This document shows positions 3,855 through 16,599 of a stretch of DNA of 33,983 nt, piece by piece (within the stretch, counting starts at the first letter, position 1; each line of letters opens with the position of its first letter). A program made the position numbers and the translations under genes. Source of the stretch: a virus. Below the pieces are notes generated by a model, which was given only the letters and a program-made list of their open reading frames with translations, was not told the DNA's origin and ran no database searches. The DNA is taken from positions 1-33,983 of the IMG/VR virus record IMGVR_UViG_3300008451_000009; one strand, written 5' to 3'.

Positions 3855-4832
3855 TTACTGAGCAAATTGTGATTCGAGAAGGGCTCTCAAATCACCACCA
3901 TTGGGCTGTGACCCGCTAGAACTTGGCGAACTGCCTTTAACACTCACACTGGCAGTTTTTGCCCGTTGTGTACGTTGGTGCTGTTCATAATTCCGTTGTG
4001 CCTCAATCCGTTGCTGTTCGATTAGGGTTTGCCTAACATCAGGACGCATCCAGATAGCCATTTCGTAGGCTTGTTCTAGCGATTTAGCTTTGCCGGTTTC
4101 CAGCAAATCAGCCATATCGCCACGCACGGCCTCGAAGTGCGTTTTATCAGAGCCAGCAAACTGAGTTAACTCATGGTTAGCTTTCGCTTGCTCTTGCTCT
4201 TGAATACTATTTTGCCACATTTGTTGGGTTTGGCGCAACTCATTTAATTGTTGCATCAAATACTGGGTTTGTGGGTCTTGTTGGGGGATATTCTGCACCT
4301 GGCCAATATCAATGCCGTATTGTTGGGCAAGGCTTTGAAAATACTGCGCTTTTGCCATCGGGTCTGCATAGCGCAAAGTGTGGTCAGCCTGTAACAGCTT
4401 ACTAATAGCCGTAGGTGCGTCAACGCCCAATTGTTGAAGGGTTTGGGCATAAGGGGCAACTGCTTGCTCAAAAGACCGTGCTTTTTGGGCATGGCTTTTG
4501 TATTCTTCTAGCCCACGATGGTAGTCTGACTCTCTCCGATTTGCCTCGGCGGTCAGAATCTTAATTTCTTGAGGCGTTAACGCTTCGCCACGTTCAGCCT
4601 TAATATAAGCGTCTTTGGCTTCGGGCTTCCAGCTTGACGGGGCTTTAATCTCGACGGGAGGCGGTTCGATAGGCACATCCACAGGGGTTTCTTTAGCCGC
4701 GTACTTGCCTTGTTCGTCACGGTTAACAGGGCTTTCAGACTCCACAACGGGGTTTGACGCTGGTGCGGACTCCACAACGGGCGTATCTGCCCCTGCAAAA
4801 GCATCTTCTAACGCGCTTCTAAGATCGGACAT
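3855..4832 (-). CDS. capsid scaffolding protein
   Basis: Protein of 325 residues, highly charged and Gln-rich, with the layout of a scaffold: a disordered acidic/Pro-rich N-terminus (about 1-65), a long helical and coiled-coil middle (ILTAEANRRESDYHRGLEEY, then QYLMQQLNELRQTQQMWQNS), and a basic then Ser/Gly-rich C-terminus ending GGDLRALLESQFAQ. The N-terminal SDLRSALEDAFAGAD and the C-terminal LRALLESQFAQ echo each other as short amphipathic helices. It lies immediately upstream of the major capsid gene. Scaffolds of this type guide shell assembly and leave the procapsid. Confidence 0.85.
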   Translation of the reverse strand: MSDLRSALEDAFAGADTPVVESAPASNPVVESESPVNRDEQGKYAAKETPVDVPIEPPPVEIKAPSSWKPEAKDAYIKAERGEALTPQEIKILTAEANRRESDYHRGLEEYKSHAQKARSFEQAVAPYAQTLQQLGVDAPTAISKLLQADHTLRYADPMAKAQYFQSLAQQYGIDIGQVQNIPQQDPQTQYLMQQLNELRQTQQMWQNSIQEQEQAKANHELTQFAGSDKTHFEAVRGDMADLLETGKAKSLEQAYEMAIWMRPDVRQTLIEQQRIEAQRNYEQHQRTQRAKTASVSVKGSSPSSSGSQPNGGDLRALLESQFAQ

Positions 4833-15653: not shown

Positions 15654-16019
15654 TTATATAACTAATTCGCTATAACGACTTTCCCAACATTCCTTGCCCA
15701 TCCAGTCATCAGGGTGAAACGTTAATTCCCTGCTTTCCTTACAACTGCCTAACAATTGACCGTCTTTGCGCTTTTGGTGCTTGGTGCGCTCTAGGTGCTT
15801 GCAGGTGTTGCAGTTAGCATCCATCTCGTCAAAATTGCGCTTACTTAGCTTTCTATCTTCTATCCCGTCTTGGTGGCATACGAATGTCCCCGATACGCTT
15901 GCCATCAAAGGGCCAAGGTTGATAGATTTATCGGCGCTTACTAGCTTTTTGCTGTATTGGCATTGATAGACCTGGTTGCCTTGGTCATCGGTGAATAGCG
16001 GTTTATTGAGGTATTTCAT
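15654..16019 (-). CDS. Cys-cluster protein, first gene of the late transcript
   Basis: Protein of 121 residues, basic and cysteine-containing. Residues 70-110 hold CNTCKHLERTKH, then GSCKESREL and GKECWES, a likely four-Cys zinc site. An earlier pair sits at QCQYSKK and TFVCHQD. The N-terminus (PLFTDDQGNQVYQCQY) is beta-like. I recall similar Cys proteins near phage nin-type genes but no assigned function. It is the first gene after the structured 250-nt leader and has no clear Shine-Dalgarno at its ATG (TAATG). A GGAG about 30 nt upstream could pair with CTCC closer in. A regulatory zinc protein is possible. Confidence 0.75.
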   Translation of the reverse strand: MKYLNKPLFTDDQGNQVYQCQYSKKLVSADKSINLGPLMASVSGTFVCHQDGIEDRKLSKRNFDEMDANCNTCKHLERTKHQKRKDGQLLGSCKESRELTFHPDDWMGKECWESRYSELVI

Positions 16020-16266
16020 TAGTTTAGTTGATGGCGGGAGTTTTCACCACAGTTCTATCCTCCGGCTTCGCCACGTTATGCGGTGGGCATACGTGATCTA
16101 CTCTAATTCAATGCCTTTGCACCATCACGGCTGGGGACTGGTGGGTATTCCTGTGTGGGCGAGCCATTTGTATGTACCCGCTTGAGCATCCCTGACTAGC
16201 CAATCCCCATGCGTAATAGTTCTCGGGGCCTTTCACCGAGATGGCTTTTAGGCAACTGCTTACCTA
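16020..16266 (-). ncRNA. structured late leader (candidate regulatory RNA)
   Basis: Gene-free stretch that folds well in the leftward transcript. In order from the predicted start: hairpin 16266-16249 (TAGGTAA-GCAG-TTGCCTA); hairpin 16241-16221 (TCTCGG/CCGAGA); long-range 9-bp stem 16208-16200 with 16141-16133 (GGGGATTGG/CCAGTCCCC) that encloses a stem TACCC/GGGTA; then stem 16123-16082 (GGTG-CAAA-GGCAT/ATGCC-CACC). Two helices contain G-U pairs in this strand that would be C-A mismatches in the other, so the leftward RNA is the likely structured molecule. It lies between nin-like and late genes, where lambdoid phages place their antitermination control. Confidence 0.55.
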
Positions 16267-16271
16267 AATTT

Positions 16272-16277
16272 ATTATA
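16272..16277 (-). promoter_or_regulatory. candidate late promoter (-10 box)
   Basis: Perfect TATAAT on the minus strand, overlapping the stop codon of the HNH gene. The predicted start (about 16265) coincides with the 5' edge of the first leader hairpin. No recognisable -35 box lies 16-18 nt upstream (GAGCGT at 17 nt spacing), so an activator or early-gene dependence is likely. Confidence 0.5.
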
Positions 16278-16599
16278 CCTTAATCGGCACGTTTACGCTC
16301 TCAGGCCATACACCTAAGTGAATTAAATGCTTCACCGTTTTGACGTGAGCCGCGTCCCAAAGGTCAATCCGTTCCTGCTTTGTTAGGTCTGTTCCTTGGT
16401 CAATCCGTGCGTGGCATGGGTAACAAAGGGCGGCTGTGTACTCATCGCTAGACTTCTTGGCCTTGCATTTACCATGTTTTGACTGATTCGAGTGAGCCGC
16501 CTGGATTTGGCTACCTGAACCGCATATCTGACAATCTAGGCTTGCCACGTTTTGCAAGTGCTTTTTGCTGCGGAAATATGTTGTTTTGGCGTAATTCAT
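16273..16599 (-). CDS. YbcO-like (DUF1364-type) HNH nuclease of the nin region
   Basis: Protein of 108 residues. It has C23-x2-C26 (LDCQICGSG), H36 (IQAAHSNQSKHGKCKAK), then C59-x2-C62-H63 and D67 (ALCYPCHARIDQG), the pattern of the YbcO/DUF1364 metal-dependent nucleases encoded in lambdoid nin regions next to ninB. It probably acts in processing of recombination or replication intermediates. The ATG overlaps the stop of ninB by 4 nt. The last codons overlap the late -10 box. Family assignment rests on motif spacing and location. Confidence 0.85.
   Translation of the reverse strand: MNYAKTTYFRSKKHLQNVASLDCQICGSGSQIQAAHSNQSKHGKCKAKKSSDEYTAALCYPCHARIDQGTDLTKQERIDLWDAAHVKTVKHLIHLGVWPESVNVPIKV

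Follow-up and report, generated by a model that had tools for sequence, protein, structure and literature searches.

Judged by comparison of sequences across phages, the 253-nt gap between the last early gene and the late genes of a freshwater phage (minus strand, 16272 to 16020, in the 33,983-nt stretch of DNA analysed, hereafter the window) is a folded RNA, read leftward and built of interchangeable modules, three of its four modules recurring with compensatory re-pairing in many unrelated phages. The best explanation, put forward tentatively since we give it slightly less than an even chance of being correct as a whole, is that the gap is the leader of the late operon, its transcription being predicted, and that the first hairpin of this leader, hp1, would signal terminator read-through in related phages.

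The gene upstream of the gap (16273..16599, minus strand), the last early gene, encodes a small HNH protein that is DUF968-like (phrog_131; Pfam score under the curated cut-off). The first ORF after the leader (15654..16019, minus strand) encodes a Cys-cluster protein with no Pfam or PHROG match, for which six relatives were found in IMG/VR and none in cultured phages. An initial annotation, made from the letters of the window, had described the gap as lacking an ORF, as holding at least four helices and as a structured leader RNA, read leftward, that opens the late operon. This description stands: no ORF was found, stops interrupting the reading frames of the minus strand, the pieces named were all located, and both covariation and strand-specific G-U pairs point to the leftward RNA. 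The fold of the minus strand consists of four modules in a row. Its folding energy is lower than that of shuffled sequences (z -2.29, with 3 of 200 shuffles equally good), whereas the plus strand folds no better than its shuffles (z +0.62). The folding-energy signal of the gap alone is modest, and it is the cross-phage comparison that decides. The window leader gave no blastn match in 50,697 phages and the window no match in Rfam at strict or loose thresholds; the literature covered was open-access papers, and an earlier description elsewhere is possible.

Module 1, the hp1 hairpin (16247..16268, minus strand), has the form UUUAGGUAA-GCAG-UUGCCUAAA with the core GCAGUUGCC at 16251-16259 on the same strand. 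It had been drawn as UUAGGUAA-GCAG-UUGCCUAA (16248-16267) with one U-G pair valid only in the leftward RNA, and this pair is seen. hp1 is the best match in the window to model R1 (E 2.6e-7, the window being among the 25 training sequences). When relatives were fetched by the HNH protein alone, 26 of the 28 with sequence behind HNH had GCAGTTGCC right behind it, usually as GCTGACA(n)GCAGTTGCCAGC. Across IMG/VR the core is carried on wholly different stems (CGU/ACG, UGA/UCA, AAU/AUU, GAU/AUC and others). In 22 distinct elements, picked only by the 14-mer GGTAAGCAGTTGCC plus a terminator, the three outer pairs are paired in 83% of cells against 47% after shuffling, and the outer stem has 27 compensated cells against 10.5 in shuffles, tests that related sequences inflate; the pairing collapses when the register is slid. 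As the GCAGUUGCC core was part of most queries, its invariance is no evidence. A related late leader with a terminator (L618:35010-35200, plus strand) has GTGTTTGCC in place of exact GCAGUUGCC, so the core may be broader than the search pattern. Two HNH relatives, L019 and L023, have no hairpin and the next gene is immediately adjacent, making them natural deletions.

A TATAAT box was found on the minus strand at 16272..16277, as had been annotated; a leader RNA transcribed from it would begin at the foot of hp1. Among 28 distinct elements not selected for a -10 box, 21 have a -10 hexamer 5-6 nt ahead of the hairpin, and elsewhere the frequency is near zero. In the HNH group the -10 is exactly 6 nt ahead of the hairpin in 38 of 44 cases, with a perfect TTGACA at 18 bp in 22. 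This fixed distance in the relatives predicts a transcript start at the hairpin foot and so lends weight to the start at the first hairpin that had been proposed. The relatives' promoter is strong; in the window the -10 lies about 4 nt from hp1, compared with the typical 5-6 nt, and no good -35 box was found in spite of the perfect -10. The idea that the -10 is a mere by-product of stop codons was discarded, as L219 has TATACT with no stop-codon overlap. With its -10 box, 5' hairpin bearing the core and compensated stem, window hp1 fits the GCAGUUGCC hairpin family.

What follows the hairpin in the relatives is usually a terminator. A T-run lies 9-48 nt past the core in 57 of 59 distinct HNH-group leaders (in four leaders of this group the nearest T-run, at 9-12 nt, sits ahead of the terminator stem), the two exceptions, with no T-run or terminator after the hairpin, being the window and L002, its nearest relative. 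At loci fetched by the 14-mer, with no selection for terminators, an intrinsic terminator was found within 60 nt at 33 of 119, related contigs included, the rate at random positions of these loci being 1.45%. The late start codon is 8-12 nt beyond the T-run in 40 of the 59 leaders. This leaves no space for a second promoter, suggesting that these late genes need terminator read-through. The terminator sequences vary between phages and the hairpin core is constant, which speaks against attenuation by mutual pairing; an attenuator in which the hairpin pairs with the terminator was accordingly rejected, the terminators being too different. The promoter and hairpin of L169 and L210 are separated by about 700 nt of other structured RNA, and yet the hairpin still adjoins the terminator, indicating that the coupling is of hairpin to terminator. 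The same promoter-hairpin-terminator unit also opens the late operon in a second phage group, which lacks HNH and has a terminase-like protein of 583-592 aa. A separate, second RNA unit with its own promoter, whose terminator is formed by the GCAGUU(G)-like stem itself (for example GCCGUUUGCA..GCAGUUGCAAGCGGC-UUUUUU), was noted on the plus strand of three contigs (L162:1820-1945, L205:9735-9875 and L168:2950-3105).

The initial annotation had proposed RNA-based antitermination. The setting fits the family, in which the hairpin is flanked by a promoter and by a terminator adjoining the first late ribosome site, but the window and L002 have no terminator and antitermination as described cannot act there. 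A third phage group has the unit between convergent genes, and no late gene follows there. This placement is explained if the unit is a stand-alone small RNA gene, whose hairpin may have a protein or RNA of the host as its binding partner, with the late operon merely located behind the unit and read-through secondary; it is not explained if the unit is only a leader. The -10 at fixed spacing that the unit carries, the UCCU-type stretches in some linkers and the precedent of StxS (PMC7873438) are all compatible with such a gene. On the other hand, a late start codon right behind the T-run in most HNH-group relatives means that read-through must be regulated, and in the window a small RNA would have no terminator at which to end. 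We regard the small RNA gene as possible, though less probable than the late leader with a read-through signal.

The late-leader explanation rests on the covariation in hp1, module 3 and module X, the strand-specific G-U pairs, the fixed -10 distance and the terminator coupling in relatives, including the second group without HNH; against it are the unit between convergent genes in the third group and the missing terminator in the window and L002. According to the mechanism proposed, transcription would start at hp1. In the relatives the default product of the unit would be a small RNA about 50 nt long, and late genes would be expressed only after RNA polymerase had passed the terminator, the GCAGUUGCC hairpin in the nascent RNA acting as the signal through which a factor might change read-through. 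In the window phage and L002, where the terminator is gone, transcription of the leader probably continues without a break into the late genes. The cassette formed by modules 3 and 4, tRNA-like in shape, may be a passenger or act as a stabiliser. Control of read-through by hp1, its loss in this phage and the role of modules 3 and 4 as passengers are inferred.

The factor would probably be neither the HNH nor the Cys-cluster protein. In line with the initial annotation, no Q-like gene was found by PHROG and Pfam searches of the window ORFs tested (early and other ORFs, some small ORFs lying outside the scan). Its suggestion that the Cys-cluster protein next door could be the antiterminator partner did not hold up: the protein was found in no more than six contigs, of which one (L002) has the hairpin adjacent to it, and it was rejected as a general partner. 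HNH was rejected likewise, as DUF968 gave no match in two 33-34 kb hairpin-carrying contigs of the other phage group. A comparison of complete genomes from two groups, using as class C the genomes L618 and L619, both without the exact core, found only structural or unassigned proteins to be shared.

Module 2 (hp2; 16222..16240, minus strand) is a short hairpin, CUCGG-UGAAAGGCC-CCGAG, that is kept in L002. Having no U-tract, it is not an intrinsic terminator. An hp2-like hairpin, CGGGGUGAAAGGCCCCCCGAG, is present ahead of module 3 in L621.

Module 3, the A-type module (16121..16220, minus strand), comprises an outer helix, an asymmetric loop, an inner helix and a variable insert. The inner helix is formed by UGGGGAUUGG (16200-16209) with CCAGUCCCCA (16132-16141) and has one U-G pair; the outer helix, ACUAUUACG (16212-16220) with CGUGAUGGU (16121-16129), has two more. 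The long helix with one leftward-only U-G that had been annotated at 16200-16208 and 16133-16141 is thus present and longer than it was drawn, the two helices totalling 19 pairs, of which the three U-G pairs would be C-A in the other strand. The pattern CGCATGGGGATT-N(24-54)-AGTCCCCAGCCG was found at at least 120 loci in IMG/VR, where the chance expectation is near zero (counts from the IMG/VR scans are samples, to be read as lower bounds, and the class of many matches was assigned from short motifs). Among the matches listed there are 110 distinct copies of module 3 and 104 distinct flanks, 14 of which have compensatory double changes in the outer helix. Covariation in homologues, the lack of which would by the initial annotation have spoken against the leader, was found for this module as well as for hp1 and module X. 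The same 104 flanks have 87 G-U against 5 A-C combinations, identifying the RNA as the leftward strand.

The ORF upstream of module 3 loci is often HNH, RusA or terminase, and downstream of module 3 arrays it is the terminase small subunit in 12 of 45 cases and the large subunit in several. The frequent position of arrays ahead of terminase genes would suit a site acting at the DNA level, for packaging or as an operator. The ratio of G-U to A-C combinations and the variable loop length favour single-stranded RNA instead, making a DNA site very improbable. Among the matches listed, a GCAGUUGCC hairpin lies within 1.5 kb downstream of module 3 in only 8 of 110, so that modules 1 and 3 are separate families; they co-occur in the window and in a few relatives (L628, L690, L731 and L491).

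Module 4 (module X, B-type; 16029..16127, minus strand) is a structure beyond those delimited in the initial annotation. It is branched and closed by UGAUGGUG/CGCCAUCA (16120-16127 with 16029-16036), an acceptor-like stem of 8 bp. It recurs in four phages (L695, L639, L657 and L703; E 5e-11 to 4e-14), and the consensus fold has 31 pairs, nine of them with compensated double changes, some supplied by the window. In L703, module 3 is followed by module X in the window order, immediately ahead of a gene. As 16120-16127 is common to the 5' arm of module X and the 3' arm of the module 3 outer helix, the two closings compete, in the window and in the arrays.

Comparison with L002 divides the leader in two. 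Both neighbouring proteins are 89-93% identical between the two phages, and the L002 gap, only 65 nt long, keeps hp1 and hp2 (93.5% identity over the first 62 nt) and then passes directly into the next ORF. A segment of about 190 nt in the window (16020..16216, minus strand), containing modules 3 and 4, is not in L002 and was either gained here or lost there. The leader is thus a shared part plus a cassette. This presence and absence, the sharing of module 3 inserts between unrelated contigs and the adjoining of modules to tRNA genes in cultured phages would all be expected if modules 3 and 4 were selfish or recombinational, mobile tRNA-linked cassettes with no role in late genes. Pairing that has been kept for long through compensatory changes implies selection on the RNA, and we consider a purely selfish origin unlikely. 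Equally unlikely, in our estimation, is that the leader is a 5' UTR element whose stems protect the late mRNA or set translation of the first gene. The window leader does enter an ORF with no terminator, and both modules in L703 and one single module 3 in L689 lie directly ahead of a gene, but such an element explains neither the sharing of the core nor the coupling to a terminator seen in relatives nor the multi-module arrays.

Two of these arrays (L169:1580-2300 and L210, reverse strand 3960-4590) are ORF-less stretches of 700 nt in which A and B beads alternate; they have tRNA-like T-arms and lie between the late promoter and the hairpin with its terminator. No Rfam family was found for the modules in 30 array loci, where the only matches were tRNAs and the unrelated Betaproteobacteria-1 RNA. 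The latter (RF02932), in a phage contig at L155:6217-6333 (minus strand), hints at a betaproteobacterial link. A search of 399 Burkholderiales genomes for host copies gave only chance-like matches inside genes, and in a pattern scan of 84,980 species all among the matches listed were chance-like.

Relatives of the modules were also found in cultured phages. In Erwinia phage phiEt88 they follow the Q-like gene and have tRNA-Phe beside them; those of Klebsiella KP591P1 and Aeromonas ST4 adjoin tRNA genes, and in Pseudomonas Itty13 the gene for the terminase small subunit lies downstream of them. These matches are short (28-87 nt), and the link is weaker than those within IMG/VR. Phages of different hosts, phiEt88 (L738, 2170-2620), ST4 (L744, 1840-2450) and KP591P1 (L743, 2240-2630), have in common a module AATGCGCAGGCTGATGCGC...GCCGGAGATCAGCACCGGC with a TTGTGGTG/CACCACAA-type closing stem, beside tRNA genes.

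Ideas on how environmental phages control their late genes come mostly by inference from lambda. In one phage group described here, a compact conserved hairpin coupled to a terminator occupies the place expected of a Q gene, and the pair recurs in others, which makes a second RNA-based route to antitermination directly testable. The module family is a large class of structured phage RNAs unlisted so far, and it is open to experiment through the related modules that cultured Erwinia, Klebsiella, Pseudomonas, Aeromonas and Iodobacter phages carry. A broader view, which is speculative and rather doubtful as a whole, is that phages of Beta- and Gammaproteobacteria may share a modular RNA system: chains of beads at the starts of late or packaging operons, A-type (UGGGG/CCCCA) and tRNA-like B-type beads alternating with mutually exclusive closings, and, at the end of the chain in some phages, a GCAGUUGCC hairpin controlling a terminator with no Q protein involved.

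The lambda-type late leader is the pR'-tR' region, with a constitutive sigma-70 promoter and antitermination by Q. The relatives are like it in having a promoter behind the last early gene, a short leader, an intrinsic terminator and then the late genes. They differ in that a Q gene was not found, an RNA hairpin is conserved and the late operon begins with packaging genes, and the window, unlike lambda, has no intrinsic terminator between the late promoter and the late genes.

The put RNA of HK022 is about 70 nt long, has two stem-loops, is made from early promoters and binds the zinc-binding domain of RNA polymerase (PMC9378689). Its antitermination goes through that domain and needs no phage protein. 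By analogy, hp1 would likewise be an element of the nascent RNA, near its own promoter, with a possible cis action on terminators. As a single hairpin of about 20 nt at a late promoter it has another anatomy, and its identification as a put RNA was rejected on comparison with the two stem-loops and length of put (PMC9378689). StxS is a short RNA produced by default termination between pR' and tR' in the late leader of Stx phages (PMC7873438). The short RNA proposed here would similarly arise by default termination in a late leader, but StxS uses Hfq-dependent base pairing, and the window has no terminator.

Rfam gave no match to group I or group II introns, and an integron attC site was discarded since the likeness of the closing arms to R boxes is confined to GTT/AAC. 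No tRNA was found in the window by ARAGORN or Rfam, and GOLLD and ROOL gave no Rfam match in the window or in 30 related loci. The B-type modules resemble phage tRNA arrays in their acceptor-like closing stem, and some of the module arrays have true tRNAs within them or next to them. GOLLD and ROOL, ornate RNAs of phages that are large and structured, are often encoded close to tRNA genes (PMC12286853); where each of these has a single fixed fold, the RNA described here is a chain of small interchangeable modules.
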